DNA from: Antedon mediterranea
Lineage: Eukaryota > Echinodermata > Crinoidea > Comatulida > Antedonidae
Direction of reading: 5' to 3'
DNA: 64,000 nucleotides
Assembly (NCBI RefSeq): GCF_964355755.1
Contig: NC_092670.1
Location: 18,599,201-18,663,200, forward strand
A model generated the notes under the pieces. It worked only from the letters and a program-made list of their open reading frames with translations. It was not told where the DNA came from and did no database searches. Both the position numbers and the translations under genes were made by a program. The number at the start of each line of letters is the position of its first letter. Position 1 is the first letter of the stretch. Of the stretch, positions 1 through 48,876 are shown one piece after another.

Positions 1-88
1 TTGAGTAATTATAAAAAACAAAAAATAGTATAATAAATAATTTTTGCTAGGGAGAAAGGAAGTGTTCTTTGCAAGTTTTGAATTAAAA

Positions 89-17947: not shown

Positions 17948-19683
17948 ATGACAAAACAAAGGACAAATAAAAGACCAAAATCTTATTACATCAAGTCTGC
18001 TCATAAGAAGGGCAAGTATGCCGAGCAGGAGCTGGATGCTGGAATGAAAGGATTCATAATAACCTGCAATTACAACGAGTTTAAATGCAGACAAGATGCT
18101 TATCAACTCTTAAATGAATATGCTGATGAAATGTATGGCCCAGCAGTTCAAGGCTTTGTAAAAGGTATATGTTGTTTGTTTTGTCTTATTTGAGACAACT
18201 TTCAGGTCTTATCCATCTTCATTCACTGGAAGCTGAGATTGTTGTCTCAGCTGGAAGTGAGAATATGTTCTGTGGATTGAGTAACTAAGTAACAAAAAAT
18301 ACATGTAGAAACTGCTGATTGGATTATGGTTATGTGTTCAAGAAAATGGAGATTTTAAACAATTATATTATTTTGATTTATAAAATAATTTTCCCATTAG
18401 TCTTTGTACATATACTGTACTTTCCTCATTCATAACTTTATTTTTTCTTTAGAAGAAGAAAGTGATGATGATGATGAGGAAGATTTTGATTTGGCATTGA
18501 AAAAGGAAGTATCCAGCATAAAAGAGAGAAAGCAATTTAGATTCCAGGCGTTAAAAACTAGTGCAAACAATGTGTTGTTTATTAAAGCTGATGTAAGTAC
18601 ACATTTGCTATACATGTCAGCTGCTACTGCTATGGTCTCTTGACATGGTTGTGCTCCCCACTTTGCTTTCGTTTAAAGGGAAGACACCTTTTTTTTATAG
18701 TAAAACTGTATACCTGCTTTCACTTAGTACCAGATGATATTCACTTGAAGCAATAGTTTATAACTCGACTGCTTCATGGTTACAGGATGGAGCTATACAA
18801 TTGTATAGCTCCATGGTTAAAGAAACTGCTCTTGCATGGCTTGTCGTCTGGCTTTTGATTCATTCAGACTATTATTAAGACATTTAAGTGTTATTTAAAT
18901 GTTATTTTTATCTAGATTGAAAATCCATGCGAGCTAGCCCATTACATTCTCAGTGATCTCCAAGAAACAAAGAAGTTAAAATCACGCGCCATCCTTCGTC
19001 TTCTCCCTGTCAGCGGAACGTGTAAAACCTACGACGACAAGTTAGAGCAACTTGCAGACAAAATTGTTGCACCTCATTTTGAATTTTCATGTAAAACATA
19101 TATGTATGTTATTAAAATAAGAATCAATACCACTGTGAAAAGCAAGACTATTATGGGTATCTTGGATAGGATTATTCGGAGGAATGAAGATTTGAATCAT
19201 CGGGCAAACATGGATAATCCGGAATTGGTCATCCTTGTTGAAGTTATCCGTAATGTATGTTGCATGAGCGTTATCAAGGATTTCAAGAAGTTTAGGAAGT
19301 ATAACTTGCATTCCATTGTTGAAGTTCTTGAAGATAAAAAGGAAGGAAAAGAAGAAAGCAAAAGAGATGGAGAAATAGAAGAAAACCAGGATAGTGCAGA
19401 AACTGAAGAAAAGAAGGATAGCGGAGAAACGGGAGAAAACAAGGATAGTGGAGAAAAAGAAAAACACAAAGATAGTGGAGCAAACAATACTTCTGGTAAT
19501 GGTAAACCAGAAGAAATAAAGACTGAAAAGGCTGAACAGGATAAATGTGAAGGATTGCAAAAAGCTGGTGGAGAACAAAAAGAACCAACAACAGATAAGA
19601 AGATGGTAGATGTCAATACTATAAAAGAGGAAGCTGTGGATGTTGATGATGAACCAAAACTAGAAACAAATGCCAGTAACTAA
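17948..19683 (+). CDS. THUMPD1: THUMP domain-containing protein 1 (tRNA acetylation adaptor)
   Basis: Three exons (17948-18164, 18453-18592, 18916-19683) give 374 aa; the human protein is about 350. Conserved blocks are ITCNYNEFKCRQDAYQLLNE, an acidic DDDDEEDFDLALKKEV, ANNVLFIKAD, RAILRLLPVSGTCK, and the THUMP-domain core around residues 214-250 (MDNPELVILVEVI, CCMSVIKDFKKFRKYNL). THUMPD1/Tan1 proteins bind tRNA and help NAT10/Kre33 make N4-acetylcytidine in the D-arm of tRNA-Ser and tRNA-Leu (family knowledge). From about residue 260 there is a low-complexity Glu/Lys tail with imperfect repeats around KDSGE. The ATG at 17948 matches the short basic N-terminus of the family. The gene converges on the MSRB1 pair. 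Confidence 0.93.
18233..18250. mobile_element. Micro-palindrome insertion, 7-bp direct repeats
   Basis: CTGAGATTGTTGTCTCAG, a hairpin with 6-bp perfect arms, flanked by CTGGAAG on both sides (18226-18232, 18251-18257). In THUMPD1 intron 1. Confidence 0.5.
18786..18815. mobile_element. Micro-palindrome insertion
   Basis: A perfect 28-bp palindrome (18787-18814) whose arm is ATGGAGCTATACAA. Flanks are GTTACAG and GTTAAAG (6 of 7 identical). In THUMPD1 intron 2. Confidence 0.5.
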
Positions 19684-20020
19684 AGACAACTATATCCAAA
19701 TTTAGGAATAATAATTTACATATACATTTATAATTTGTCCAATACAGTATTGGTTTTCTTTATTTTGCACATCAAGACTCCCAGAACAACCCTCACTACT
19801 AACAGATTAAATAACAGATCAAAAATGTACTTATTTCTTTTTTGCTATTGAAGGAAGAAAAACTCTTTACCATATTAAATTAGATTTAAAATGCATTATG
19901 TAATACTAAATACTGTACTAATTTACTTGGAATTACAAGCCAATATAATATTAATTTATTGCATCTATGCTAACTAACATCTCATAATAATTCATCTTAC
20001 AAAAATAATGCTAAGACCTT

Positions 20021-20570
20021 GTACCTTGATTTTATACTGAAAAACTTTGTAGGGTATTAAATAAAATATTTTGATGCTATGATAATGCAATTTAATCTTA
20101 ACTGCATCTTTCCTATATAACATCAAAATATGAATATCCTACTGTATACAAAATATTGGTAAGTTTTAAACATTTTACCCTGATTTTATTTAATAAATAT
20201 ATACTGTAATTCTAAGTAGGTCGGGTATTAAATAAATAGGACATTTTGATGTTCAATATTATGCTATTAATTTAAATTCCTGATATCTCAATATGAATAC
20301 CCTATAAAAGTATTGCCAAATTCTCAACTTTGTACCCTGATTTTATTTAATAAATATATACTGTAATCCTAAGAAAAGTAATTAAATAAATAGGATATTT
20401 TGATGTTCAATATTATGCTATTAATTTAAATTCCTGATATATCAATATGAATACCCTATACAAATATTGCCAAATTCTCAACTTTGTACCCTGATTTTAT
20501 TTAATAAATATATACTGTAAATCTAAGAAAAGTAATTAAATAAACACGATATTTTGATGTTCTAGTAGCA
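20021..20570. repeat. About 155-bp tandem repeat 3' of the MSRB1 copy
   Basis: Roughly 3.5 units starting near 20021, 20178, 20335 and 20489, each with CCTGATTTTATTTAATAAAT and GATATTTTGATGTTC. One diverged unit at 22195-22265 sits at the equivalent place next to the other SECIS. Confidence 0.85.
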
Positions 20571-20582
20571 TGGCCAGATACC

Positions 20583-20628
20583 TCAACTCTCAAAGTCTTC
20601 CATTAAGGCTTTAACTTGAGCGTGTCAT
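20583..20628 (-). promoter_or_regulatory. SECIS-like hairpin 3' of the Gln-type MSRB1 copy
   Basis: On the minus strand the core is ATGA (20628-20625), 12 nt, AAA (20612-20610), an apical loop, a returning helix, then TGA (20585-20583). The helix pairs CTCAAGT with ACTTTGAG with one bulged base, and GGACCA/TGGCC can pair below the core. The ATGA...AAA spacing of 12 nt fits eukaryotic SECIS elements. In the spliced 3' UTR it would lie about 80 nt after the stop. The gene no longer has a Sec codon, so this may be a relic. Confidence 0.65.
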
Positions 20629-20812
20629 ACTTTGGTCCGTCGTAATGCCACAAAAACATTAAAATATGTTCTCGAGGTTTAATGCTGTTGCATTTCTTTA
20701 TTCATTTCTAGAATTAAAGAAAAAAAAACATGGCTGTGAAATAAATAATGAGAATATTTAGAGCTATTACATTTTTAGAGGTTTTAATCATGTGAGTGAC
20801 AAACTGCTTACC

Positions 20813-21788
20813 TTAAGCAGGAACAAAGCTTAAAGATGACGAGAATATTTGGAAGCTTGACTTGCCATCGGGACCACCGCCGAGAATTTCATATCCCAGA
20901 TCATTACCACATTTTGCACAGGTTACCTACACAGAAAAATACAATTTGAATCTCTTGGCCAAACTTTTTGCACAAACCAGCATTTTCTGACTTTAATTGG
21001 TTTGTAAGCATGTGCAGATATTTATAATAAGTTTTATTGCTTCATCATAGTTGACATGTCTACCAATACAAAAAGTCAGTAATATACAGTATTGCTATTC
21101 AGTTTGTTGACTTTACCTTTAATTTATTCTGGCTTTCATCTCTTTTGAAAACACTATCGGCATTGATAGTCTCTGTAAAGGCAGGCCAAGCTGAAGAGTC
21201 TTTATATTTTGCTTTGCTGTCAAATAGCTCATTGTTACATTTTGAGCATTTGTAGATACCTTGCAAAGACAGAAAAAATTAAGCAGTTTAAACTATTTCG
21301 AGCTTGGTTTAATTAATGGATTTGATTAACGTGCTGAAATCAAAATGTTATGCACCATGCCTCCCTCGATAATATTGTCATTCGTTACTAAGAGGCAGTG
21401 CAGAGTAAAACTTTATTCAAATAATCTACAACTTAAATTAATAAATAAATTGCACTTGGAATTTGCCTGCACTGCAAGGTAATTATGCAAGAATTTCTTT
21501 CTAACAGTTCTACTATATGATTTTTGGTAATAAAAGAAAATTGCTAAAATGTGTACTAGTTTTTATTAACTAAAGGCTTTACAAAGTGGGCCCTAGGCCT
21601 AACTTAGGTAGTACTAACTAGGGGTGTAACCCTCTAGCCAGTTGCGACCTTCTAGTACTATAACTGGTATGTTGATCGGCAGTCGTTAAAGAGAAACTTT
21701 ACTTTACTACCAATTAAAACTCCAAATTACCATCTTCAAAATGATCTTTGTATAATATTTCTCCACCCCATCCAGCAGCGAACGACAT
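20813..21788 (-). CDS. MSRB1-like protein with Gln at the selenocysteine site
   Basis: Minus strand, three coding exons: 21731-21788, 21117-21259, 20813-20926; 104 aa, close to the 116 aa of mammalian MSRB1. The start is [20 protein letters not shown]. The fold is intact: both zinc CxxC pairs (CSKC, CAKC), AWPAFTETI and the C-terminal [10 protein letters not shown]. The residue aligned with selenocysteine (human Sec95) is Gln93, codon CAA at 20851-20849. The resolving Cys4 of mammalian MSRB1 is Ala. HSSPWPAF and IHADS of the partner copy are changed to DSSAWPAF and INADS. Methionine-R-sulfoxide reductase chemistry therefore looks lost, leaving a zinc-binding MsrB fold. An intron donor (G|GTAAGC) lies one base after TAA, with an acceptor at about 20708, so the 3' UTR is split. 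A SECIS-like hairpin lies at 20583-20628. Confidence 0.85.
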
Positions 21789-23215
21789 TTTGATCAATTA
21801 ATTGACGGCAAACGGGCAAAACGAAAAAATGATTTTGTTGCGTTTACTTAGTTGATTTTAAGCTTGGTTTCTCAACAGGTATGTCGTTTAATGTTTCCCC
21901 TCGAACACTGTATATTATTTGACCAATTAAACCGCGATGGATCATCCGAACTGTCCTTTGTGATTGATCAACTCACTTGTGTTGTCAAGCGGTAACTTAT
22001 GTGTTGTTCGTGTGAGCGTGGACGTGACGACGATGACAAAGGATTTGCATAGGCGGCGACATCAAGGAACATGCACTGCTGTCAATAAAACGCACTCTCT
22101 TTGAACACAATGTTTTTATTTATTTAGTCCTTGATTCATTTATTACATCTTTGCTAACGTTTCAATATAACTTATCATATAAAAATATTGCTCAACATTG
22201 TACCTTGATTTTATTTAATATATACTGAGTAGATTAAATAAATAGGATATTTTGATGTTCTAGTAGCATGGCCAGATACTTCAACTCTCCAAGTCGTCCA
22301 TTTAAGGCTTTAACTTGAGCGTGTCATACTTTGGTCCGTAATGCTACAAAAATATTAAAATATGCTCTTCCCTGGAGGTTTGATGTAATAATGCAAACTT
22401 AAGTGCTTAGTTTCATAGTTAACTCATGAAATATACTGTGTTTAATAAATATTTGATAATAGTACTGTACTACTATCAATTGCATTTAATGTTAAAAATG
22501 TATTGTCTTCCAAAAACATTAAGATTAATCAAATTAGTATGCCATTTTGCAGTTTTAATAAAGTTAATCTCCTCTGTAGGAAAAAAACGAAAAAAAAAAT
22601 GTTTTCACTTAGAAAAAGACAAAATAATTGGTTAAATGCAACTAAATACCCATTGACTGGCAGCCAATTTTACTATTTTTTTGTTTCAATTTTGTTTATT
22701 CAATGTTTAGTCAAAGTGAATAACTAATATGTGACATTAAAATGGCATATTCAACAACAACAAAAATGTTTACAAGGGACAAACAATATACCTTTAATTA
22801 GTTAAATTGATAAAGAAATGTTTTGTACTATCTGCGTTAAGGTAACTAGTTTTCTCCAGGGGAATGCGTACATTGTTAGTTGAATGGTTTCTACTGCTGC
22901 ACCTCTCCATTCTTTTCTAGAAAGTAAAGAAAAAACATGGTTATTATATAATAATAATACATTTTATTTTAACAATTTACAATATAAAAAAATAAAAGCA
23001 CATACAAAAATCATCATAAAACATCAAAGCATCACTAAAAAGAAAAGCCAATAAAAAACAAATAAAGCCCTGAGAAGAGCCACACTGTTAAAGTGTAGCT
23101 TCCAATCTTTGTTACTATATTGATAGCATGAGTATATTATAATTATTATACATATATAATGACATGAGTATATTTTGACAACAATTTTTAGAGGTTAGAT
23201 GAAAAAGTACTCACC
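21789..23215. other. Region between the MSRB1 copies
   Basis: Contains the upstream region of the Gln-type copy, the SECIS-like hairpin at 22281-22327, one 155-bp repeat relic and the inferred 3' UTR intron (23214 to 22917) of the selenoprotein gene. No other coding potential is seen. Confidence 0.55.
22281..22327 (-). promoter_or_regulatory. SECIS-like hairpin of the selenoprotein MSRB1
   Basis: The same architecture as the hairpin at 20583-20628: ATGA (22327-22324), 12 nt, AAA, apical loop, helix strand ACTTGGAG, then TGA. The bulged base differs between copies (T versus G) while the pairs are kept. It lies about 590 nt into the presumed terminal 3' UTR exon (from 22916) of the TGA-containing MSRB1 gene, and about 490 bp upstream of the start of the second copy. 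Confidence 0.7.
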
Positions 23216-24242
23216 TTAAGTCTTCAAAGCAACAAACTTCAAAGACTCTGAGAATATTCAAAAGCGCGATTTGCCATCAGGACCGTCGGTAAGAAATTCA
23301 TGCCCCAAACCATTACCACATTTTCCACAGGATACCTACACAAAACAAAATCTCTTGGTCAAAATTTTGTGAAGCGATAGGAAGGTGTCACAACATTGAT
23401 CGGTTTGCAGAGAATCGAAAATTGGAAAATATAATTGCAGGAGCAATGACTTATCTCTGAAATAGCGCTATACAAAGAATTTATTCATAAAAAAAGTTTA
23501 TATATACTTCCTTGTTGACTTACTTTTAAGGCATTCTTGCTTTCTTCTCTTTTGGAGACACTGTCAGCGTGAATGGTATCTGTAAATGCAGGCCAAGGTG
23601 ACGAGTGTTTGTATTTCTTCTTGCTGTCAAATAGTTCATAGCCACATTTTGAGCATGTGTACATACCTTGGAAAAAAAACATTAAAATAATACCTTTTTT
23701 GCGTTTACTATATTACGGACACAACAAAACGCAAGAGATTTCAAACACTACTTGGATCTGGTTTGTTAAAAAACAATTTGACTACTACTACTAGGCCTAG
23801 GTCTACTTCTACTGACAGGGAAAAATTTCATTTTAAAATCAAATTGATTTTTGAGTTGAGAAACATAGTTTTGAATTGTATTTTTTGCTAGACAATTTTA
23901 GAAATGTGTACAGTACAGTGTAGCAATAAGGTTTTTTTGTATAGCTTTTTGCTATGCTACACTGGCGAAATTATTCCCTGATTGACTAAACTAGCTAAAA
24001 GCTAGGAACAACAACTAGGCCTACTTCCGCCTAAATATGGAGAGACAGGGCCTGTTGGTTCTACTCTCTCTGATCTAGCCCTAGCCTATCCAGGGAGAGA
24101 GGCCGAATGCCCTACTCTCTCTCTATAATTTAAGTCTAGCTAGCTAGGCCTAACCCTAAAAAACAGTAAATTTTGGGTCGAAATTACCATCTTTAAAATG
24201 GTCTTTGTACTTTTCCCCAGAAAACCACCCACAGTACGACAT
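23216..24242 (-). CDS. MSRB1: Methionine-R-sulfoxide reductase B1, selenoprotein
   Basis: Minus strand, three coding exons: 24188-24242, 23524-23666, 23216-23335; 105 aa when the in-frame TGA at 23260-23258 is read as selenocysteine (residue 92). The start [19 protein letters not shown] keeps resolving Cys4. Zinc ligands are CSKC and CGKC; catalytic-site blocks are [17 protein letters not shown] and [10 protein letters not shown]. The C-terminus reads [14 protein letters not shown], matching vertebrate SRF-U-IFSSSLKFV around the TGA. The enzyme reduces methionine-R-sulfoxide in cytosol and nucleus (for example on actin) using thioredoxin. Automatic annotation would truncate this gene at the TGA. 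As in its tandem partner, an intron begins one base after the stop (G|GTGAGT), with an acceptor at about 22917. A SECIS-like hairpin lies at 22281-22327. Confidence 0.9.
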
Positions 24243-25159
24243 CTTGACCAATTACTCGATAGCAAAGAAAATGATGACAACGCGAAATTGTTTTTATTGT
24301 GGTTCCGGATTCAGATTAATTAGCTCAACGCCGATGATCATGATTGATTTGTTTTGTTTTTTTGAGAGCCAACTAGCGCCCTCTACAACAAATAAAGAAG
24401 AGTTAAATTTAGCTTTGGTTATGCCGCGCCGTCGTGTTGTGTGTGTGTCTCTCTCGCGCGGCGGCGATTATCGCGTTTTTTATTTTGTAAATAGAGGGCG
24501 ATAGATAAAATCTCGAATTTTCCCCGTGGATCCCATGTCTACCTTTTCTCTCTCTCGCGACCAAATATTTTTTTGAAAAAGTGATTTTGAATGATGTTGC
24601 AATAATCGGATAGTAGGTTGTTTTTCATCTTAATTCATAGAAGATTAAACCAAACTAGGCCTATCTTTATGAAAATAAAAATATGACTTTATTTTATTAA
24701 TATTAGTATGCTTTCTCTTCTAGTAGTAGGAGGAGGGCCTAGCCTAGGCTATAATAATACTTGGTATTGTAGGCTCAGTATTATAGGTCTGGCGGAGCCA
24801 GACCTACTTCTACTACTACCGTGTTAGGCCTAACACCTATTTATTAGGCCTAGCCCATCCGACAAACGATGACCATACACAGACTGGTGTGTGTTTTCGA
24901 ATCGAAAAGTGCTACACGATCGTACATCATGAACAAATCAATCGTAGCATATTTGGAAGGAAGTGAATAAATAATTATAATATTAATAATGAACAGAAAC
25001 AAAAAAAAAACACGAAAAAATACACAATGAAAAATATGTATACTATATTAGTATTTGTATAAATTATTAATTAAGCCTATGCTATAGAAAAGAAATATGT
25101 TTATGAATATGATTTTTTTTAAACAATTTTACTCTACTTAGAAAAACTACATAAAAACA
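24243..25159. promoter_or_regulatory. Shared divergent promoter region, MSRB1 / UBFD1
   Basis: The 917 bp separating two start codons on opposite strands. A local GC-rich patch (24421-24490, ATGCCGCGCCGTCG, TCTCGCGCGGCGGCG) and further CpGs (TCTCTCGCGACC) stand out from the AT-rich surroundings, as expected for an animal housekeeping promoter. No TATA box is assigned. Confidence 0.4.
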
Positions 25160-27977
25160 ATGGAAGCCCCAACAAATTCAGATGAGACATCTGCAACAGA
25201 AACAGAAATAACTCAATCAATGGAGACATGTGACAAAATTGAACCTGGAGTGAAAGAAAATCATTCTTCGGTCAATACTACCAGTAACGAATCCTTAAAA
25301 ATTGAAGATAATTCATCAGAAAAAAAAGAAACTGATTTACAAAATGAAAAAATAAATGAGGATGGTGACAACGTCTCATCAGAAACTGTTACTTTTAAAC
25401 TTGTTTACATGAAGAAAAATTATGACATTACCTTTGAACTAGATGCTAAAATATCGCAGCTGAAACAGAAAATTCAAAGTTTAACAGGTAACAAAGATTA
25501 ATCCAGGAAACAGATCAGATCTCTTTTAATATTATTTTTAGGGAGTTTTTGGTCGAACAATTAAACCTTAATTTTAACGGATTAACATTCTATTAATTTG
25601 CATAACAGCATAGTTGCGAACAGTTGTGTTAACATACTTCAATTTTTATTCAATGAAGGCTTAGAAAAAACACTTGCCAGTGTTTAAAACCATAGGACTA
25701 GAGGAGGTGTAGATCTTTTTTTGCATTGAACTGAGTTTACAAGTTAGAAAATATTGTTAAAATTAAGGTTTACAAAAAGTCTCTATTATTAGAAAAATAA
25801 TCCTTTCATTTTAAAGATCACTCTGTAATTTTTGTAAAATATAGATTTTTGTCTTGTGGTAAAAGACATCAATTCAATACAATTATATTTGGTGATCTCT
25901 CTAAACCTTACTTGATATTTATTTAACGAAATTATATTTTTGTTAGATGTGCCGCCAGCTATGCAAAAATTAATGTACAAAGGGTTGGTGAAAGACGAAC
26001 AGACATTACGAGAGTCAAAGGTCACGAAGGGTGCTAAGATGATGATGATTGGTTCTACACTTAAGGATGTGTTGACGGTAACAACCACTCCAACAGCATC
26101 TGGTGTACCTATTCAAGAAACAGGTATGTAATAAAGTTTATGTGACAAAAGAATGTGATGTGCCCATATATGGACATGATGATGTCAAATTACTACCATA
26201 TTTGGGCACATCACACTTTTTTGTTAAACTAGTAGAATTTATTCTTTATATTATGTACACCCTTCATTCAGTATCAATATCATTTTAAAGTAAATTATAA
26301 AAAAGAGCATTTTTAAGATGTATAACAGGCAAATTTAAAGTTGGTTGTTATGGCATATGGTAGGTTGTTCATGTTCCTTAAATTCAGTAATAATATTAAT
26401 GAAGATTTCTTTCGCCGCCAAAGGTGCTCAAGCATTGTACTTTTTTAATGGTACTTTTTAAATTTACATAAAACTATTTCAAAATTATGATTTTCGTAAT
26501 AAGTTCTATGCATGTCATCTGAAATTAATACTTTAATTTACTCTATTTGCATATTATATATCTATACACATCCATTGAATTCAAAGTATTGTTTGTGTTA
26601 CAGCAGGCACCACGAAAGAGCCATTAAGTCGGCAAAAGCTTCATAAAAAGGTTCTAGATAAAGGAAAACCAGAGGATATCATGCCAGGAATCAAAAATAA
26701 AAAGGTATCAGGAGTCAAATTCATCAAATGTGCTTATAAAAAAAACCCAACAAATTATTTTAAAACTTTATTTTAAACTTAAACTAACATATAGAAATTA
26801 TTTAAAGATATTTAAATGAAGTCAGATAATAAAAAAATGCTTGATAAATGAAACCTCCTGTTTTTCACTTAAGTACCTTTTGACTATCTTTCACTTAAGC
26901 AAAAAGATTGATAACTGCCAGTCCTGGTAATCTTCTATCTCATTCCAGATTATTGTTAGTACAAAGTTACAATCTTTACTTTCTTTGCAGGAACCATTAC
27001 CAAATTTCCCAATATCAGGAATGTTCAACAAATCTGGTGGAAAAGTACGGCTAACTTTTAAACTTGAACTAGACCAGTTATGGTTAGGAACAAAAGGTAT
27101 TATTTGTTTTTTATTTTGATGTTTACAGTTACAATTCCATGTTTGAACTCTTTTTTATTTATCATCGTTAAAATATAAAGAAATCAGAAACTAAGGTCGA
27201 TAAAGAGGTAAAAATGAAACACATAAATATTTGAAATGAGCTTGTAATGTACCCTAAAATTAAGTATCATATTATTATTTAAAATCATAACTACAGAACA
27301 TAGACTAACTTTAACCATGAACTATAGAGTAGTTCCATGCTTTAACCATTAAGTGGCATTTTCATTTTAAAGATCAGCAAAAGAGATCAGAAGTGATGGT
27401 AAATAAGCCTAACAAGCTAATGACGGTTTTTCCCCTTTCATTGAAAAACTAAACCCTCTGTAAAAATCTTGTATATTGTCTTGTATGTATTACTTTTCTT
27501 GTATAAATATGTCAATTTCAGAGAGAACTGAAAAGTTAAAGATGGAATCGATTAAAAAGGTTGTAAGTGAACCAATTGAAGGCCACGAAGAATATCATAT
27601 TTTGGTGAGTTCTCTGAAATCTTTATTTTGCATTTATAATTTATTAATAAAATAATTAATTGCAGGATTTTTTGAAAAAGTTTGATAGTGTAGACAGGGC
27701 TTTATAGCCAGTCGGTTATAACAAACATATAGTATTACTGTATACATGAATGCATTGTGTGGTGTGGTTTACACAAACAGCGACATTTCAATCAAGAAAG
27801 AGATCAAATAAACCAGCAAATTGCCTAGCTAACCAAAACAAATATATATAAACTTATTTTTAGGCCCTCCAGCTTGGCCCAACTGAAGCCTCGAGATATT
27901 GGATATATTGGGTGCCAGCACAATATGTGGATTCTATCAAAGATGCAGTTCTTGGTAAATGGCAGTCTTTCTTCTGA
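25160..27977 (+). CDS. UBFD1: Ubiquitin-like domain protein UBFD1
   Basis: Six exons: 25160-25487, 25947-26123, 26604-26704, 26991-27096, 27522-27604, 27864-27977; 302 aa (human about 309). The first 75 residues are acidic and low-complexity. A ubiquitin-like domain follows (about 76-165: VTFKLVYMKKNYDITFEL, PPAMQKLMYKGLV, KVTKGAKMMMIGST). The C-terminal domain is highly conserved: RQKLHKKVLDKGKPEDIMPG, SGMFNKSGGKVRLTFKLE, KKVVSEPIEGHEEYH, LGPTEASRYWIYWVPAQYVD and the terminal VLGKWQSFF. UBFD1 binds polyubiquitin and has been linked to NF-kB signalling in mammals (family knowledge). Exon 3 has a CAGCAG tandem acceptor. The 3' UTR probably runs to AATAAA at about 28897 and holds a 50-bp triplicated repeat. 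The gene is divergent from MSRB1 across about 0.9 kb. Confidence 0.93.
25541..25790. repeat. Possible TIR element in UBFD1 intron 1
   Basis: AAACCTTAATTTTAAC at 25563 and its complement near 25755, with outer similarity GGGAGTTTTTGG versus AAAAAGTCTC. The boundaries are unclear. Confidence 0.35.
26131..26236. mobile_element. MITE family M2 copy without terminal repeats
   Basis: Interior of the element (AAAGTTTATGTGACAAAAG through GGCACATCACACTTTTTTGT). It begins within about 10 bp of the UBFD1 exon-2 donor. Confidence 0.6.
27683..27705. mobile_element. Solo right terminal repeat of MITE M2
   Basis: Only GTTTGATAGTGTAGACAGGG and CTTTA remain, in UBFD1 intron 5. Confidence 0.6.
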
Positions 27978-32334: not shown

Positions 32335-32665
32335 AAGCTTGGTTCCCACTAGGACGCAACGCAAGGACGCAATGTAAGCTTGTTAAAGCGTGGTTCCCAC
32401 TAGCGACGCAACGCAAGGACGTAACGCAACGCAAGTGAATTGACCAATCACAAGCGATGGCTTATTCGCTTTTGATTGCTAACTGTCTATAACTTCGCTT
32501 GTCATTGGTTAAAACGCTTGCGTTGCGTTTACGTCCTTGCGTTACGTTCTAGTGGGAACCAAGCTTTACCAATGAGAAACGACAGCTCGAATAATCCATC
32601 GCTGGTCAACTCACTTACGTTGCGTTACATCCTTGTGTTGCGTCTTTGATGAGAACCAAAACAAA
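32335..32665. mobile_element. Nested pair of MITE M1 copies
   Basis: An outer M1 begins AAGCTTGGTTCCCACTAGGA, is interrupted at about 32385 by a complete inner M1 (to about 32569, flanked by TTA/TTA), and resumes with CCAATGAGAAACGACAG to end near GATGAGAACCAAAAC. This gives a relative age of two insertions. Confidence 0.8.
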
Positions 32666-33615: not shown

Positions 33616-36600
33616 TTACTTATAAATAGCTCCACACGAGGCACACCTCTGTTTCGACATCATGAGGCAACATATCAACCCCATAGGAAAAAAGAAAACC
33701 GCACAACAAATTCCAAGAACAGAATATGACACTTTTAAGTCAGTTCTACAAGTTGGACAGACGCTGTCCAGGGCTACCCACTCGTTCTGTTGCTCTTGCA
33801 TTTTGATTGTATGTTGATCCGAACCTGGCGGACCATGCGTGTAAGCTACTACAGTAGTTTTTGTTGCCATATTCGTCGATTGATTTGCTTGAAGAAGGCC
33901 AGATGATGAATATTTAGGAATCTGCTGGAATTGGCCGGTGTGGTACTGACCACCGGTGTGTGGTGGTGGTGGGTACACAGGCTGGTTTGCCAAGTATTGA
34001 CCAGTGTTTGGTTGGTAAATCGGTGGTTGGCAAATCGGTTGATTCGTCTGGGGCGGGTAATAGCCCGTCTGATGTGATTGCTGCCACAGCGGAGGATATG
34101 ACGGATCTGTAAATCAGAAAAGAAAAAGAAGTTAAAATTTAAATTCATTATAAACTAGATACTGTATTTACTATTTGATTAAGAATACCTCTTGGTCAAC
34201 AACAGCAATGTGCGATGAGTTCACAGAATATAGAACACTGTACGGTGATTAACGTCACTTTGGTAAATGCATGCTACCTCAATATTTCAGCGTTGTGTAT
34301 TTACAGTTTTTTTTTAAAGCTAAGTATTCGGTACCGAGTAAAGAATGGAATTCTGGGCGATTCCATTAGTGGCACTGCGCATTAGTGTCCTTTCGTACCT
34401 TTATAAAAAGTACGATGTAAAACTCTACACTATCAAACTAAAAAAGGTCATATACAATATGGCTGCTGTCGCGTGCTTAAATTTGAGTTAGTGTTTACCG
34501 ACCGACCGACCGACCAACCGACCGACATAGTGAGAGCTGTAGAGTCGCGTTTGCACGCGACTAAAAACACAAAAAAATGTGCAGTGATGTGCTCAAATAT
34601 GGTAGTGATGCCCAAATATGGTAGTGATATGACATCATCATGTCCATATATGGGCAAATATATTTTATCATCAAACTAGTTTGATCATGGACCTATTAGT
34701 CCATGGTTTGATAGTGTAGACAGAGTTTTAAGCACATACCAGATATTGCTTGATTAACTTATTGCAAAAGATCGCGTTATAAATTGATATATACTGTTGC
34801 ATTTTAGTGCACTACCCCTGAGCATCGAATGATGACGTAGCACTGATACCTAATGAGCTGTTCATCGAAGCTGTCAAGCAATAGAAACAAATGGCGATTG
34901 CTATATATTAATTTTCACATTTATTTCAAAACCGTTTCACATATAACCTTTTACGTTCATTTGAGACTATTATAATTTTGCACACTTTTAATCAAATTTG
35001 TTTTCACTTTTAATCGTTACTCGCATAATTGATATGTTTTCAAATTACAATTCCCGATCATTTTATCTCGCATATGTTTGCTGTCCTACGTACGCACGTA
35101 CGTGCCTTCAAGCTTGGTTCCCACTAGTGACGCAACGCAAGGACGTAACGCAACGCAAGTGAATTGACCAATCACAAGCGATGGCTTATTCGCTTGTGAT
35201 TGCTATAACTGTCTATAACTTCGCTTGTCATTGGTTAAAACGCTTGCGTTGCGTTTACGTCCTTGCGTTACATTCTAGTGGGAACCAAGCTTTAAGCTCT
35301 GTCTACACTATCAAATTTTATGTGACTAAAAAATGTGATGTGCCCATATATGGACACGAGGATGTCATATCACTACCATAATTGGGTATAACGCTTGGGC
35401 ACATTGATTTTATGCTCGTTTTATTTATTTATTCTATGTTATTATACTTTGTTTCTGTGTTTATCGTATGAATACACACAAAATACCGGTCCTTGCGCAC
35501 TATCTACCAAAATATGTTTGCCTGATCATCAATAATACGTATTCGATCGTAGATGGCTGTTATTATTGTAACTCTCCGTGGAACGATAAACAACGACTCT
35601 TCTGGCCAGAGCAAACTTCAAATAAATTATTATAATATACAATATTCTACAACTAGTTCGTTATGAACTATTCTCGCTGTAATTCAGGAGATCACATTGT
35701 TGTTGTTTTACCGTTGCTGAAACGTTAAAACGAAATATAATGTAGCGGCTATCTATGGGAAAATAAGTGCTTATTACCTTCCTCCGTGGCTACTATGACT
35801 AAACCGACTATGTTATACCAGGGAGTTGTAAATTAGTAATTACAACTCCCTGGTTAGGAACCTTCAATGATGGTTATACGGTTTGCGATTTATAGTTTAT
35901 CTATAGTTTTACTGATATAACTCTATCGAACGACCTGATCACTCTTTATAAACAATCATCAACTGCACTACCCCTAGGATCAATAGCATAACAGATATAG
36001 AAATGATTCGGAGAATAGCAGAAAACAAACAGGAGGAGAGCAATACGATATTATAAACAAAGCAGCCGAGGCGGGAAAGTCAGACTATCTGGCGAACCGA
36101 CAATAAAGTATAAGTAAAGTTGTTTAACTGAGAATGGTTTCTTGCTAGGTTAGTAATTGGTCACTCGGTTGGTTAGTAAATGGTTAGTTAATTGTTTTGC
36201 TTCCCAGACAGTTGATTGGTTGCAAGAATCAGTTACCCAATCCGTCGGCTGGCTGTGGTTAACTGATTTGTAAAGTAAAGTTTAGATTGACTGATATATG
36301 TTGGAAGTTTGCTTTGAAATCGTTCTTTGTAAAGCGATATAAATGATCAAAACGAAAAACATACAAATAACCAATTACCGTTAAATATAAGTATCGTATC
36401 ATGAATAGCCTAATTACCATAACAATTATTTTATGTAATTTTTAGCAATTATTATTGATAATCCAATCATAGTCATGAATTGTAATCTTCTCAGAAAATG
36501 CAAATTTGACTTATTGAGATTATACAGCTATCTGCTGATAGCCTGGAGAATTCTGCTTAATATCCTTGACGACTTCAGATTTGCGATCGCAGAGTATGAC

Positions 36601-38992: not shown

Positions 38993-39015
38993 CACACACA
39001 CACACACACACACAC
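38993..39015. repeat. (CA)n microsatellite
   Basis: An uninterrupted CA run between the first two BRI3-family genes. Confidence 0.9.
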
Positions 39016-39753: not shown

Positions 39754-42075
39754 TTATTGGTATATAGCGCCACAAGATGGACAATGCCTGTTCCTCATCA
39801 TTAAACAACACAGCAAACCGAGCGGGAAAAAGAAAATAGCACAACATATGCCAAGTGGGGTAAACGACTCCTGTAGAATACCGATGTGACACCGTGGACA
39901 AGTCGTACCAACGACTACCACTTGACTTGTGGTAGCGCCTTGTTGTACAGTGACGGTTTGGTGTACTGCTCCTGAGGGACCGGATGAGTAAACAGTCGTT
40001 CTGGTGTTTGGTGGTGGATAGGCTGCCATCGGCTGGTTTGCTTGTGGAGGGTATGGAGAATATCCAGCCGGTTGCGCTGGGTATCCTGTCGGCTGTGGTG
40101 GATACACTGGATCACCAGTAGCTATAAAATACAAATTCAGTTCAATTTATTTCCACAATACATAATAACATACAGGATACTAAATACAATAAAGTAATCA
40201 TGGGGTGGGGGGTCATATAAGTCAGAAAGACTTTAAGTTTGACCCATCCCAACATATAACAATAAATACAAATACGAAAAAGAAAAAAAATACATAAACT
40301 AATAATTATTAATATTAAATAAAAGAAAAACAAAGCTACAATTTGATTCATCATAAATACTATGGTACGATATGAGGGGAGCCAGCCCGTAGACTCGCAT
40401 TTCTTTCTATGAAACAGTCTTTAGAAAATGTGTCTTTCATGATCATGTTTCTTTGATCCTCCTCCTAGGAGGACGCAGCGTAAGTGCAGCGCAAGTAATG
40501 CTTGGTTTCCACTAGCGACGCAATCCACGCAACGTAAGAAAAATTTCCAATCCTTCCAATCGGTTGCCTCCGCGCGCCTGTGTGAAATCAAAGCTACGAT
40601 GTTTGCAGCACAATTGTATCAAAGATTGTATAGCGCCGCTACGCGGCGCTATACAATCTTTGATTGTATCGTCGGTTCCCACTTATACAACACTTTGCTT
40701 CAATACGTCGTTGCGTTGCGTTCTAGTGGGAACAACCAAGCTTTAGTCCCTTTTATACGCCGCAGGAAAAAATGATTATTCCATGCCTATTTTTCAATTT
40801 TAACGCTCATCCCAATGACGTAATTAATTTGAATTGTATACACCCCTACCTGATCGTCAGGCCTATATTAATAATATTCATATTGAACAAAGGTTAATTC
40901 ATATTGTTAAATTAATCATGTAACGATGTTTGTATTTTGGATGATGTATATTGATTTCCCTTCGGTTATTACTTCCCCTTTGGCCTATTAAAATGCATGA
41001 TCTCTATGTCGACATTAACATGAGACCTAATGTTCATATAATACACCATGGACAAAATTGATATAGTACTTGTTTTGTCCATGCATAGACTGGTATTTAT
41101 TCGATAAAGCCTGGACCCGTACTCATTTTTGTTTGGAACGAATTACAAACTTTCATAAAATAAAATAATTATTAGACTTTTATGTGGTTTCGGTCAATTA
41201 AAAATGGAATTGTTGCTTAATATGTCGATAATAACTGTAATGAACTTTTAATCTAAAAAAAAAGACACGCCAAGCAAATTTTTGAAAATAAATTCAACAG
41301 TGGACTTGAACAGAACCCATCGAAAAACCGTTTCAACTGCCGTTTCAATCCATCCCACCTGAAGTAAATTTATGTATGATTACTATCCTACTGTATCAGA
41401 ATAGCGTTTTATTCAGCACTGCTCAGGCTGGTATATTATAAACATTATTTTTATCGACTTATTATTGTATTGATTTCGACAAAGGGCTTGATTCTAATAG
41501 GCATAATGGTTATTTAATTGCTCCTTATTGCATTTTGTTATTTTAAAACTATTGTTGTTTTATTACCATTATTGAATAAATGTTATTGAACTTGAAAATA
41601 AACAGTACCGCTGCTTACAGCAAAACACGTATGATTTTTTGAACTCCGGGAATGTTTTGTTTTAACATGCTTGAATGTGATCTAATACATCACGGTACAT
41701 AAAAGAATTTGGCTAAGAAGACATAAAATAGTCAAAATCCAACTACCCACTCTTTTCTTTTCTTTTTTCCCACTGGGAATTTTCGATATCATCATCTTGT
41801 TTAATGTCTTAATAAATTTAGACACCAATTGGCACTTTTTATGCGATAATTTGCACCACCATCATGTCCAATATATTATAAGCGATTTTAAAAGCAAATC
41901 TGCCACGGGCCTCAAACCCAGTCTCTGCCTGATAAGTAATTAATCGTCCGCGCCATCTTCTCTGAAATGATGGCAATCAAGAAAGAAATTTAATTGTCTT
42001 CTTACCGGATTTTGTCCATCCTGCTTCGGGTGGTGAGTATGGTGGCGGCTGCGTGTTTCCTGCAGGGTCTGCCAT
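39754..42075 (-). CDS. BRI3-family membrane protein 2
   Basis: Minus strand, two exons (42006-42075, 39754-40121), phase-1 intron, 145 aa. The N-terminus has PPPYSPPEAGW, a PPxY motif of the type that recruits NEDD4-family WW domains. It is followed by Pro/Tyr-rich GYPAQPAGYSPYPPQ. The C-terminal module is VVVVGTTCPRC (C98, C101), a hydrophobic segment LGICCAIFFFPLGLLCCLMM and HCPSCGAIYQ (C137, C140). Same exon layout as the neighbouring BRI3-like genes, so the trio arose by duplication. Likely an endolysosomal membrane-associated protein. Confidence 0.9.
40500..40744. mobile_element. MITE M1 copy carrying a perfect palindrome insertion
   Basis: Left GCTTGGTTTCCACTAGCGAC, right GCGTTCTAGTGGGAAC then AACCAAGCTT. 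The body is interrupted by a perfect palindrome at 40620-40662. Confidence 0.7.
40620..40662. mobile_element. Perfect palindrome insertion (20+3+20 bp)
   Basis: Arms are perfect (CAAAGATTGTATAGCGCCGC and its complement), loop TAC. ATTGTAT flanks both ends (40613-40619, 40663-40669). It sits inside a degenerate M1 MITE. Confidence 0.6.
41047..41083. mobile_element. Micro-palindrome, weak flanking repeat
   Basis: CATGGACAAAA ... TTTTGTCCATG with a 15-nt loop. Flanks AATACAC and CATAGAC agree at 5 of 7. Confidence 0.35.
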
Positions 42076-43820
42076 AACGACTGTTCAAAATATTAGCCAA
42101 AAAATGATATAAAATGACTAGGATAAAATAAGTTGGTTGATCGTCACAAGAAATTTTAGATCCAATTTTTGTATTCAATATACAGTAACTAATAATGTTG
42201 CTACGTTATAATGTAAACTCGTGATTGGACCTTGTACCGGGTGTGCTTTCGCTGTCGAGAACAATTAAGACCGTGTCATCCATTCAGAATTTAATAAATA
42301 ACTTATTAACTTTCATCAGCCTTTTAACTGTGATCGTCCGATGACATTTAGACTACAATAGCCAACTTGTTTGATTACCGTCGAATGTTTATGTAATAGG
42401 CGGTATAGTAGGTATAGTACGTATATAGGTAAATTGCCTATTATAAATCATTCAATTCGCCCTATGAGTGGTGATGTAAACCGCACAGGCAATGTAGGCC
42501 TTACGCTTTGAGTGGTGGTGGATACTACCGGATAACATTTCATTGCTGATGATAGGCTGATTATTGTTAAAATTAATCACAATCATCATGATTCAGTGGG
42601 GTAGAGGTGTTAAGTAAATTGTTTGTTAGGAAATGTTTTCGAGAGTCATATCCTGTTCGCCAGTCGCTACCCCCTTTCCCCCTCCAAACCGTCCCTATCC
42701 ATTTTCTCCTCCCATTTGAGCTCAACTTCGGTCAACAATGATCTTTATTATAAGTAATTACTAAATAACCATTTTTTTCTTTTCTTATCTGAATATTTTA
42801 AAGAAATCGAGTACTTGTTTGTTTGCTATCCATTAAGGTAGTAAATACTGGTTGTGTACGTTTAATAATTTTATTTTTATTAACTGTTTATAGTTCACCC
42901 AGGGAGTTGTAAAATGATTATTATTATTATTTTACAAGTCATGGTTCACCCATATATAAGTGTAAGTAAATAAATAAAAAAAATAAAGTGTGTTAAAGTT
43001 CATTGGATGACCGAACAGTTTTAAATACCGCCCTCTTTAATTTCAGAATAGTTCCTGTTCCTTGTCATGTGACCATATCGAAATAGAATGTTTTTCACAT
43101 GATTGTTTATGACGAAAAATAAAATTCTCTACTGAACTGTTGTTTTCAGCATATTGTTGTGATATACTGACATTTGCTATATAATTAATATATATCGGAC
43201 ACGTAATAGTGCTTTTATGTTGTACCAAACAAATAAGGTAAACATTGTCGTTAGTTTTTTTGTACTTATTTAGGTATTTCTCCCTCTTTCTTAGTTAGGC
43301 CTCCAGGCTCTAGCCTCCTACCTATGCTGCTAGGCGTAGGACTTGGCCGGTTTGGTTGTTTGGTGCTCGGAGATTAGCAGGTAGGCCCAACCTTCTTTAA
43401 TAGGCCTACTAGACTAGGTAACAGTGCTAGGAGGTGGTAGGGGCTAGGTCTAGTAGCAGTATTACTTGGTATTTAGACTAAAAAGCTACTGTTTTTTATG
43501 TGGTGTAGGCCTATATGTTAGATTTTAGTTTTACTACTTGGCTAGAAGAGAACAGATGTATAATGGAGCTAAAATAAGACAGCTCAGTGCAGTGCTGTCA
43601 CATTTTCTGTGGAAAGTCTATATACTTATTTTTAGGAATCTTATATGTATATTAACGATACAAAACTGTACAAACAGAACAGAGAATTATAGCAATTAAT
43701 GCTATATAATATTAAATAAATGTATCATAATTTCTATTGTTAATGTTAATATTAAAGGTAATCACTACATTCCAGAGAACCGAAAAACAACAACTCTACT
43801 AAGCTACAATATCATAAAAC
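42076..43820. other. Divergent spacer between BRI3-family genes 2 and 3
   Basis: No coding sequence is seen. Contains the micro-palindrome at 42900. Positions 43740-43820 probably hold the 5' UTR of the plus-strand gene. Confidence 0.5.
42900..42943. mobile_element. Micro-palindrome insertion (44 bp)
   Basis: CAGGGAGTTGTAAAAT, a TTA-rich centre, then ATTTTACAAGTCATG. Perfect GTTCACC on both sides (42893-42899, 42944-42950). Confidence 0.55.
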
Positions 43821-45048
43821 ATGTCAGCACCTCAACAACCTCCACCTGAAGAGAAACCCCCAGCATATAATGGCCAAGGGATGATGCCACCAAAAATGGC
43901 CAATGGTGCACCACAAGGCTATGGCATGCCACCACCTGGATATACAAGTAAGGACTGTCATTATTATGGCTATATTGTATGTTCTAACAGTACATTGAAT
44001 TTGTATTCTGTGTAATGTATTAAATTATGCTTATCACTAATTATGTAACCTGGAAATTTATCTTTATCATTTCAATTTACGTTTTAGTCCAGTAAAATTA
44101 CATCTTATTATAAATTTCTTCATTTAATTATCTCTTTATATATTGTTCTGATCTTATTTTTGAGATGAAGATAATGATCTATACAAAATTTACTGTAAAG
44201 TGCTGAAATCCAAATTTATAAGAACATTTTTTTATATGGCCGCCACTTTATACTTGAGTATTTATTATTATTAAACATCAAAAGCTTTGGAAATATTTAT
44301 CAACTATGAATCATAATGACTTGAGGCATGGAGTGAGAGAATCAATGAATTGCTAACATAGAGCAGTCTACCAGCATACTATATCTAATTATGATATAAT
44401 AAAATGACTGTACTGTATTACACATAATCAATAAAGTAATCAATGTTGAGAAATAAGGGGATTTTCAAACATTGTAAAATAGTCAGCAATAAATATTATG
44501 CTGTTACTGAATATGAATAAAACTTATACTCCAAATAAAAGATTAAATCAACCTTTCGATTTTTATTGGATCATCATCAGTGTATCATATTTATTTTAAT
44601 ACCTACCTACCTTATAGTGTTGGTATGGTTGGTATTTGTATTTATAATGCATTTTAATTTAAATATATGTAGTATAATTTAATGCAGTGACCATTTCTTT
44701 ATTATACAGTTCTAATTTATATAATAATTAAAGCATGTAATTGGTTATAAAATAACTTTTTATTTTTATTTTCTAGGCTACCAATCAGGGGCACCACCAG
44801 GTTATCAGCCAGCGCCACCACAACCAGGATACCCCCCTCAACAGGCATACGGCCAACCAGTCACAGTCACGCACACCACAAATGTGGTTGTTGTAGGTGG
44901 GTGCCCTGCCTGTCGAGTTGGTGTTCTCGAAGATGATTTTACCGTCCTTGGTGTGCTCTGTGCCATTTTATTTTTTCCGCTCGGAATTCTGTGCTGTTTA
45001 GCAATGAGGCAGAGGCGATGCCCAAATTGCGGAGCTGTATTTGGTTAA
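43821..45048 (+). CDS. BRI3: BRI3 (brain protein I3) orthologue candidate
   Basis: Plus strand, two exons (43821-43947, 44777-45048), phase-1 intron, 132 aa, close to human BRI3 (125 aa). The N-terminus has EEKPPAYNGQ, matching the conserved PPAY motif of BRI3, then Gly/Pro/Tyr-rich sequence. The C-terminus NVVVVGGCPACRVGVLED (C85, C88), hydrophobic LGVLCAILFFPLGILCCLAM and RRCPNCGAVFG (C124, C127) is the closest of the three to vertebrate BRI3. It is divergent from the minus-strand copy at 39754-42075, with 1.7 kb between start codons. The symbol reflects family resemblance; one-to-one orthology is not shown. Confidence 0.88.
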
Positions 45049-45572
45049 TATTTATTATTAAGAATCATGTTTGGGGTCAGGAGATGGAGCAATTGAATCA
45101 TTTGAATTACCTGGCTGGCTCAGAGGGGAAAAAACTTTAGACAAACATGTTTTGAGTCTTGGCTTTCACTCTTTAAGAGAAATTTATGATTCGAAAACTG
45201 ACCATTAGGCCTAAAAAAATGTTATTGTTATATTGTCCAATATTTAAATAATTAAATGAGAGAAATATTGGATTTGTGAGTTACATTTCCACAATTTTAT
45301 CATGTATTATTTCGCTGTCTTTCCCCTCTGAGCTGGGATGGAATATTTTTTTAATTTAAAACATTTCTACTACTACGCAATGCAAGCATTTTAACCTCTT
45401 AAGTTATTTCCTTCGTAAACATGGAATAACCAAGATTGTTTATTTAAATGATTTTTCAGGTTTTGTTTTGAAAAAGAATTTGTAATTTTAGTGATATATT
45501 TATAAACATATACAAAGGTAATCTTGGGACTTTCTGTATATAATTAACATAATTATTATTTGCTTGATATTG

Positions 45573-45635
45573 TTATTTCCCATATTTGTTCATTATTTCC
45601 CATATTTGTTCATTATTTCCCATATTTGTTCATTA
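45573..45635. repeat. 20-bp triplicate
   Basis: Three copies of CATTATTTCCCATATTTGTT, 3' of the plus-strand BRI3 gene. Confidence 0.9.
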
Positions 45636-46717
45636 TTTACACAAGAATATATAGATATTATTTTAATATCTTTGAAGGTTATTGTCTATTGAATATACAA
45701 TATAGTTTAAAATATTTATTTTTAATATTGCAATCCTTTATTACCGTATAATTTGCCGTTTTTCTGCTTATTAGAGTTTCTACTTTTTTGTGCTTATATT
45801 TCACTTTGAGTAAGCCAATTTTAAAAATAATGTTATCCAAATAAAATAATTGTTGGCTGCTCAAATAAATTGTAGGGATTCGTTATTGAACCATGCAACT
45901 ATAAATTAGGTAGGTCCATAAAGGAACAATGGTGGTTTTGTTTATTGTCCAAATTCCTGGATTTGAACCAACAATACTGTGGAATTGATATCGTATTACA
46001 ATGCAATATTACATCTAGTTTATGGTTTTTATATTCTCCGTGAACCACTGCATATTCTGTCATGGCTATACTAGACGAATTTCTTCTCAACAACATTCCA
46101 TGCACGTAACACATTTACGTTATTTAATTAGGCACAAATATAACGTATGAAATCGAATTTATATTTCAGCCCAGTATAGTTATATTTGAATATAGTATGT
46201 TTAAAAAAATTTTTTTTATTATTCATGGAATAGATAAAATTAAACAATAATTGCTTTATACTTGTTTGTTGATAAATTACATATAGCGATAATGCTATAA
46301 TAACATGTTAGGTACTATTAAAGTAGCTATATTGGTGTTATCACCGTTTTCAGTAAACTATAATAGAATAATAAATCATTTATACAGTAATTGGTTTTGT
46401 TTTCTTCTGTGTCTACTTTAAATAATATTCGCGCCGCGCGAATGTATGAGTTCAGATTGGTTGCGCACTTATGTTGCATGCTACAGGGCGATAACGATCG
46501 ACGAAATATATTACATAAAACAAGTTTTCATTCTATTACTATAGGATAACCATTTATACTGTCGTTGAGAAAAATAAGATTTTTTTAAATCAATTGACGA
46601 TTAAAAACAAAATCGTTGTATCGCCACGATGTTATTGCCCTTACTAATCATGACGTCATTTGAACGTGTGAAATGGTCATCATGGTTCCTAGTTCTATAG
46701 CATGGAGTTGGTTCTAG

Positions 46718-46744
46718 GAGGGAGTTGTAATTTACAAATCCCTG
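46718..46744. mobile_element. Micro-palindrome insertion (27 bp)
   Basis: GAGGGAGTTGTAA then TTTACAAATCCCTG, with GTTCTAG on both sides (46711-46717, 46745-46751). Related in arm sequence to 35819 and 42900. Confidence 0.55.
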
Positions 46745-47204
46745 GTTCTAGGATGAAAACTTAGTATCTATCGTGGATCGTTATTTCTTTTGTTTTATGT
46801 TTGAAAAATGCAAATCTGTTCAATCGTATAAAAAATGAATGATGAACAAGTTTGTTTAAAAACTAAATGGTGACTGGATGGGTATTTATTTTGTGTGAAT
46901 AGGCCTATGTGGACGTTTTAGCTAGTAAGTTTTTGCACTGGCGGGATTTTAGCCCTGTTACCGTATATTTTTCGAGAATATACACATTGTCTTTGGATTT
47001 AATTTTGGTAAAAGATGAGTCTCGGCGTCATTAGGTCTATAAAATGTAAATTCTTTAGAGTTGTATAATGAGATGTTGATGTAGGCCTGGTTTAATCATG
47101 AAGGTATAAACAATCAATGTTATACCTCTAAATTAATTCACGGCAGTGGTTTTTAATCCATTTTGTGCGTTTATCCGTCTTTTATGTAGGGCCTGGGCCT
47201 AAAT

Positions 47205-47235
47205 CAAGGACTTTAGATAACAGTTAAAGTCCTTG
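47205..47235. repeat. Inverted repeat, 11-bp arms
   Basis: CAAGGACTTTA ... TAAAGTCCTTG. Resembles the micro-palindromes, but the flanks do not give a clear 7-bp duplication. Confidence 0.5.
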
Positions 47236-48411
47236 GTCTAATACATGTTTAAAATGTTGCCCATGTATAATAGGCCTACAGTACTAGTTACTCTGTAGTG
47301 TTAATTGAATTCACGGATTTAAAAAAAGGTCGATTCGTTAATGACCAGTTATTAACTCGTGCAAGAAGAATGCTATACCTGCACAAAATGTGCTAAATAA
47401 TCAATAATCCTGATGGTACGTGAAGTCAATATAGAATAGTACTGTGGTAGGTCATAGAGATAATTAATATCTCTATGATGAATATGCAGAGTTCGGTTGA
47501 TTGAGAGGAACTAGACTGCGCTTGTTGCCGTGTCATGAGTTTTTATTTATTTATTTCCATAATTGCCAGTTAAGGTAACCTTGGTAGATAATATTGGTGA
47601 ATTGAAAAAATTGACCAAATATTATTGTTAGACGATAATATCAAAATTATGAAATACAATTACGTCATTGCCTCAAAAGTGGGAGGCGGTAGAGGGCGGT
47701 AGTCAACTTTTGAGTTGGTGATAGTACTGTACTAATGATTGAGAGATTTATTAGTATCCAAACAATTATACTTGACACAATGCAGAATCTTCCCAATTAA
47801 AAACGAATGTTATTCTAACGAAATTAATTTCAAGATACCACTGGGACACCATATGCCGGTAGCGTATATACAAGAAAATTCAAATAAATAATTTCAGTTT
47901 GCTTGATATTAATTAATTTGATGCTGAATTGGATTGGGATAAGCAGAGACAAGTATATGCTTATTTTAAATCCCAACCAGAATTGTATTAAATATGACAA
48001 TGTTAAATATTTAATTGTTATAGGCCTACTGTTCAAAATTAAGGTAGTTTGTGCTATTTAACCGGTTTTTGTTGTTTTTTTGATTTTCTGATCGTTAACT
48101 TTGTACATTTTGATGCCTATATAGTATATTTTAATTTTATGTATTAATTATATTTGAGTTTTTTAGACATCCTGTAATTATTGGCGATTTTGCTGTTGGA
48201 TGTATGTGAAATAAAATAAAGTAAAAACACTATTTTGGTTGATCATGTACTGTATTGTTGTCCTGTTGTTTGAAACCCATAAAATATGACTACGTTCCAA
48301 TGGAAATAAGTTGACATACTTTTAATTGTCGACTTAATTGGTTATCTAGGTATTCTTTTACTTTTCTATTTTACTATTTTAATATCGAATAAAATCAATC
48401 AATCAATCAAT

Positions 48412-48437
48412 CATGGAGGTATATTTATACCTCCATG
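48412..48437. mobile_element. Micro-palindrome insertion (26 bp)
   Basis: CATGGAGGTATA, TT, TATACCTCCATG. AATCAAT flanks both sides, but the locus is an (AATC)n tract, so the flank match is weaker evidence. Confidence 0.45.
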
Positions 48438-48876
48438 AATCAATCAATAATTATTACGATAATGAATTAATTTATTAAAATATTAACAATAAATTATTAA
48501 TAAAACTAATCATTTTCAGTCTCGTATCTAAACTTGTGCGAACATTTTTACAGGATTTCCTCTCGTAGTTTATGCTGTTTTTCAAGGAATCATTATCTCT
48601 TTCTAATTAATCACAAAAAAACCTATAAGAAATTGAATATCTATATTCGTAATTTCCGATGAATAAGTGGCGCTATACAACAAAATACTTACTTTATATA
48701 GATCATGGAATGGCACGATTGACCTAGTCGGGCCGTGCTAATATCATATTTTTCGATATTTATAATTGCATAAAAAAATAATAGTGGAAAAAAGTTCGCG
48801 CTGGGTGTTTGTTGGGTTTCGACTGCTGATGGAAGTTAATTTTTAGCAGTTTTACTAGAAAATAATTTATTTGCGC

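Follow-up and report, generated by a model that had tools for sequence, protein, structure and literature searches.

Micro-palindromes between 7-bp repeats as probable excision scars of P-superfamily transposons in Antedon mediterranea

The short palindromes that punctuate the window (the whole 64,000-nucleotide stretch of the Antedon mediterranea genome analysed here) are, on the strength of sequence comparison, very probably the repaired excision sites of transposons belonging to the P superfamily. Such scars keep ~18 letters of both element ends between two copies of the target-site duplication (TSD), and the genome would thus preserve, in legible form, hundreds to thousands of such excision events. 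The original prediction had considered that they might be the last vestiges of cut-and-paste elements that duplicate 7 bp; they do appear to be what such elements left behind on excision, but not elements that had already shrunk to palindromes when they inserted. The accompanying puzzle, that no named transposon is so small, dissolves once the palindrome is taken not to be the transposon itself.

All nine of the palindromes predicted are found in the window. The 7-bp repeats said to flank them are exact and immediately adjacent in six of the nine and carry one mismatch at 18786, but do not hold at 35819 or 41047; for the former, GTTATAC had been claimed on both sides, but the adjacent right flank reads GTTAGGA, the next GTTATAC lying ~20 bp further on. 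The features are as follows (window coordinates; ‘scar’ in the sense of the proposed reading):

18226-18257: scar, P family 1; palindrome CTGAGATTGTTGTCTCAG at 18233-18250; TSD CTGGAAG on both sides, exact
18779-18822: scar, CATGGAGCTATACAAT class; palindrome at 18786-18815, first base changed from C to G; TSD GTTACAG/GTTAAAG, one mismatch
34679-34712: scar CATGGACCTATTAGTCCATG; palindrome at 34686-34705; TSD GTTTGAT, exact; within an interspersed repeat
35819-35852: scar-like palindrome CAGGGAGTTGTAAATTAGTAATTACAACTCCCTG; GTTATAC on the left without a direct right-hand repeat
40613-40669: palindrome CAAAGATTGTATAGCGCCGC-TAC-GCGGCGCTATACAATCTTTG at 40620-40662; TSD ATTGTAT, exact; CAAAGATTGTATAG class, without a matched parent element
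41047-41083: inverted repeat CATGGACAAAA..TTTTGTCCATG; no TSD detected; membership doubtful
42893-42950: scar, CAGGGAGTTGTAAAAT class; palindrome at 42900-42943, right arm decayed; TSD GTTCACC, exact
46711-46751: scar, CAGGGAGTTGTAA class; palindrome at 46718-46744, first base changed from C to G; TSD GTTCTAG, exact
47453-47477: possible extra scar CATAGAGATAATTAATATCTCTATG, absent from the original prediction; without a TSD
48405-48444: scar CATGGAGGTATATTTATACCTCCATG; palindrome at 48412-48437; TSD AATCAAT, exact

The additional candidate at 47453-47477 shares its tip with an exact-TSD scar elsewhere (L009:1604), whilst the TSD at 48412 sits within an (AATC)n microsatellite, such that the length of its repeat is ambiguous. 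When the window is scanned on its own under strict terms (near-perfect ends and an interior bounded by C and G), just three scars are recovered, the rest being mutated or having trimmed arms.

Looking beyond the window, we listed all palindromes whose arms reach 7 nt or more in the window plus fetched loci (304,279 bases) and tested for exact flanking repeats at C...G boundaries. Forty-six C...G palindromes carry an exact 7-bp repeat, as compared with two at 5 bp, two at 6 bp and one at 8 bp; shuffling the right flanks among palindromes yields a mean of 0.2 exact repeats at 7 bp. The excess is also seen in the window and in palindromes lying away from locus centres. As this sample had in part been picked by palindrome or GTT-flank pattern, a genome-wide spacing test was added, in which GTT, a CATGGA...TCCATG palindrome and a second GTT were sought with the first GTT placed for a 7-, 8- or 6-bp duplication. 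The 7-bp spacing gives 538+501 matches (~1,039), the 8-bp spacing 23+19 (42) and the 6-bp spacing 6+7 (13), all counted on both strands, so that the same locus is in part counted twice; a small share of true 8-bp duplications, as reported for Galileo (PMC4168063), could lie behind the 42 matches at 8 bp. Genome-wide, there are 261 matches to CATGGAN6TCCATG and 8 to its reversed control; CAGGGAGTTGTAA...TTACAACTCCCTG has 101, and its control none. The excess of 7-bp repeats over neighbouring lengths, without which the original prediction would have fallen, is present by a wide margin. The preferred target is symmetric, approximating to GTTNAAC in a hand-compiled list of 35 TSDs from scars and full elements.

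Full-length candidates for the parents are present in the same genome (354 Mb, 18 contigs), where PF21787, the P-transposase domain, has at least 35 matches. Family 1 comprises three copies of 5551, 5574 and 5562 bp (L050-L052), ~99% identical, each bounded by a terminal inverted repeat (TIR), CTGAGACAACAATCAAAGAGATTGGAAACGCT, that is perfect over 32 bp, and flanked by exact 7-bp TSDs (CGGACAC, GCTAGCT and GTTTATA). Its open frame of 794 amino acids matches PF21787 and PF21788 (3e-26 and 6.5e-18 in L050) and the Drosophila P transposase structure 6p5a (E=1.5e-14). A second element, found as one 6324-bp copy on contig 11 (L056), has the exact TSD GATACCG and a TIR, CATGGAGGTATAAAAATAGAAGGAGAGAGCTC, again perfect over 32 bp and with tips CATGGAGGTATAAAAATA...; its exons match PF21787 (4.9e-24), PF21788 and PF21789, that is, all three P-transposase RNase H/GTP-binding models. 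Four copies thus combine a perfect 32-bp TIR with a 7-bp TSD, as against the ~31 bp and 7–8 bp that define the superfamily, and from their predicted transposases, of the P type with an RNase H domain carrying a GTP-binding insertion, we assign the parents to the P-superfamily DNA transposons. The exons resolved in the parent transposases matched no THAP domain, and a THAP exon may have been missed upstream in L050. The N-terminus of the contig 11 transposase gives a weak zf-AD match (1.9e-5, bits below the curated cut-off). Five further P matches (L053-L055, L057 and L058) show no clean TIR/TSD pair inside the stretch fetched.

In Drosophila, P footprints consist of TIR tips left between two target duplications, with variable joins. 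The same arrangement, TIR tips between two TSD copies, is seen here for the CTGAGACAA and CATGGAGGTATA classes. The palindrome at 18233, CTGAGATTGTTGTCTCAG, consists of family 1 TIR tips of the CTGAGACAACAATC type joined head to head, its arms being those of the tip CTGAGA(CAACAA) of the 5.55-kb element (L050-L052); the arms at 48412 match the tip of the 6.32-kb element on contig 11 letter for letter, and belong to the CATGGAGGTATA class that the tips of this element form. For the CAGGG class, a lone CAGGGAGTTGTAAAATAAG end (L079) runs into AGGAGAGAGCTCGA, a subterminal stretch of the contig 11 element, which ties the class to related P elements; this one end, rather than a complete copy, suggests that the CAGGGAGTTGTAA parent was likewise a P element. 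No opposite CAACTCCCTG end was found within ~6.5 kb of either candidate parent end (L079, L080), and a third candidate, L081, proved to be a scar with ~22–26 bp of filler and an apparent 8-bp flanking repeat. A hAT-like origin, hinted at by the CAGGG termini, was rejected on account of the 7-bp TSD and the P transposases with matching TIRs. Members of the CAAAGATTGTATAG class are present genome-wide in many copies with variable joins, and the palindrome at 40620 has the architecture of the other scars. We propose that distinct P families leave distinct tips: CTGAGACAACAATC, CATGGAGGTATAAAAATA, CAGGGAGTTGTAAAATAA and others.

If the palindromes are repaired excision sites, then their arms must end at the transposase cut, and this they do. 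Among the first ~50 matches listed for each pattern, the 96 arms of the CATGGAGGTATA class, aligned with the parent TIR, have a mode of 18 nt and a maximum of 20 nt (four of 19 nt, two of 20 nt); none of the 96 extends to 21–27 nt, in a search that allowed up to 27 nt of a 32-nt TIR. The CAGGG class has the same mode and maximum, and family 1 arms reach at most 17 nt. The pattern is that of a staggered cut, which in Drosophila falls at 17 nt, and the retained arms point to a stagger of 18 nt here; the rare 19–20 nt arms would be expected if the match runs on by chance or the cut shifts by one base. Variation is found in the middle: 35 of 48 listed scars are distinct, with constant outer arms and differences at the centre, and many have one arm trimmed. 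The most frequent, CATGGAGGTATAAAAATATTTTTATACCTCCATG, measures 34 bp, equal to two 18-nt arms less a 2-nt self-complementary TA overlap. For one class, 214 scars were counted, whereas intact ends of that TIR type number 18 and are ~12 times rarer.

These features suggest a sequence of events that begins with insertion and duplication of 7 bp of target, as seen in the full-length copies. Transposase would then cut at the 3' end of the element and, on the other strand, ~18 nt inside the TIR, leaving on each flank a single-stranded tail made up of the outermost ~18 nt of the TIR; here we draw both on the anatomy of the scars and on Drosophila biochemistry, since Drosophila P transposase cuts one strand 17 bp inside the TIR, leaving long 3' tails—a position unusual among cut-and-paste transposases—and donor flanks therefore keep the TIR tips (PMC7776569). 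Host end-joining would presumably fill in, trim or align the two identical tails, the last by way of a few self-complementary bases, before joining them. The product would read TSD, TIR tip, inverted TIR tip, TSD: a palindrome of 17–45 bp between 7-bp repeats, which might thereafter stay put, decay or be copied along with a surrounding repeat.

That an insertion preceded the scar can be seen at 34686, where more than ten window copies of the host repeat lack the insert (for instance 9763-9821 and 52990-53053) and cross a single GTTTGAT-like motif. The empty sites sought by the original prediction are thus available for this scar in the form of related, unfilled repeat copies in the same genome, and speak for insertion; in another copy of the repeat (L016), a CAGGG-class scar occupies the same GTTTGAT-like motif. 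Some identical palindromes recur at different loci, and those checked (with CTGAGACAATAACTATTT tips) all occupy a single position within a repeated sequence. A repeated sequence other than that of 34686 carries, at the site CCTACAT, CTGAGACA-class scars with several different joins.

Could the palindromes instead be ultra-short MITE-like elements, moved in trans by P transposases and duplicating 7 bp as they insert? The exact 7-bp TSDs, a copy number in the hundreds, the identity of the tips with those of autonomous elements and the presence of some palindrome sequences at several loci would all fit, yet we consider this improbable. Differences between copies are concentrated at the central join (35 of 48 being distinct) rather than scattered as among derivatives of master copies, and the arms stop at 18–20 nt, and so lack both the inner half of the TIR and the internal sites bound by P transposase (PMC7776569, PMC1562414). 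MITEs are master-derived copies retaining the sequences needed for transposition, whereas these palindromes retain just the outermost ~18 nt of the TIR; the many scars trimmed in one arm should moreover be immobile. Palindromes of 18–45 bp in general should be unable to move on their own, given that a Drosophila P element must have no less than 138 bp at one end and 216 bp at the other in order to move, and that Anopheles P-MITEs retain just under 100 bp (PMC1562414). That some of them have nonetheless been re-mobilised in trans by P transposases, scars thereby becoming elements, we regard as marginally less probable again.

Hairpin or templated-insertion repair without any transposon, the other origin originally entertained, would account for the palindromic form, and some junction fillers do resemble templated additions; but of insertion by this route we see no sign, the recurrent fixed tips being those of P-element TIRs, the TSD fixed at 7 bp and the target preference GTTNAAC-like, and we hold it to be very improbable. 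Least credible of all is a chance or low-complexity artefact of an AT-rich genome. The microsatellite setting of 48412 and the missing TSD of 41047 are in keeping with it, but the shuffle and spacing controls exclude it, with 46 repeats where 0.2 were expected and a fall from ~1,039 matches to 42 and 13 at neighbouring spacings, and the reversed-pattern controls give 0–8 matches.

Scars of this type most resemble the P footprints of Drosophila melanogaster, with which they share a P-type transposase, retained tips and arms whose length is set by a cut within the TIR (a 17-nt stagger in the fly; PMC7776569). They differ in having a TSD of 7 rather than 8 bp, a TIR of 32 rather than 31 bp and a probable stagger of ~18 rather than 17 nt, and in that hundreds to thousands of sites make up a natural archive across the genome, where the Drosophila examples are experimental events. 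Galileo, a P-superfamily element of Drosophila, likewise has a 7-bp TSD (with a few of 8 bp) and a palindromic target consensus, GTANTAC as against GTTNAAC-like here; its TIRs are very long, and palindromic scars go unmentioned in the portion of the published account drawn upon (PMC4168063). The P-derived MITEs of Anopheles gambiae are similarly short and non-coding, with P TIRs and exact TSDs, but have an 8-bp TSD and keep an internal region as well as sequence from the two P ends, in contrast to scars that hold only the outer ~18 nt and nothing internal (PMC1562414).

As to extent, scaling up roughly from the window (6–8 scars per 64 kb) would put the genome-wide total in the tens of thousands, whereas the pattern counts, lower because they cover few tip classes and exact matches only, back only about one thousand. 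In our view the mechanism is a known one, while the abundance, the 7-bp duplication and the apparent 18-nt stagger are new details; a search of the open-access literature found no description of such a scar archive, which is weak evidence of novelty. Footprints of cut-and-paste transposons usually amount to a few bases and are invisible in a reference genome. With the long overhang of the P type, by comparison, family, target site, cut position, trimming and filler would be readable at hundreds of loci. For annotators of repeats, the scars carry a warning that such palindromes are probably not mini-transposons. For the P superfamily, they would offer a natural data set on transposase cleavage outside Drosophila, with its 7-bp duplication and probable 18-nt stagger, as well as on germline end-joining and on the numbers of elements that have departed relative to those that remain.

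Both P families carry an extra gene, convergent with and on the opposite strand to that of the transposase:

L050:4465-5436, strand (-), second gene of P family 1 (full-length copy)
L056:510-1508, strand (+), second gene of the contig-11 P element
L056:2885-4654, strand (-), transposase of the contig-11 P element

The products of the second gene, of 323 and 332 aa respectively, are weakly similar to each other (a pairwise comparison gives E=6e-07, with 23% of residues identical across 186 aa), with neither matching any Pfam family above cut-off. The N-terminal zinc-finger region of the contig-11 transposase returns a weak zf-AD match (1.9e-5, bits below the curated cut-off); the region sits at the position expected for THAP.

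One CAGGG-class scar has its arms separated by ~22–26 bp of filler, and lies between copies of what is apparently an 8-bp repeat:

L081:244-302, CAGGG-class scar with filler

Scars with the TSD CCTACAT lie at the same site of one repeated sequence (loci L060-L066, L068 and L071) and have several different central joins, reflecting either independent excisions or else drift within the repeat copies. Elsewhere (loci L002, L020, L038-L043), scars of different classes adjoin, with a shared 7-mer, GTCAAAC/GTTTGAC, between them; as if the same target had undergone repeated insertion and excision.

Two further repeats were seen:

window 32391-32659, 35114-35294 and 12445-12551, interspersed repeat with abundant AACGCAACGCAAG
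G000:C3:297727-298580, scar CAGGGAGTTGTAAAATAAGATTATCTTACAACTCCCTG in a tandem array

The former contains inverted repeats and has several copies in the window. The latter has a period of mostly 45 bp, equal to the 38-bp palindrome plus 7 bp; apparently a satellite made from a scar and one TSD.
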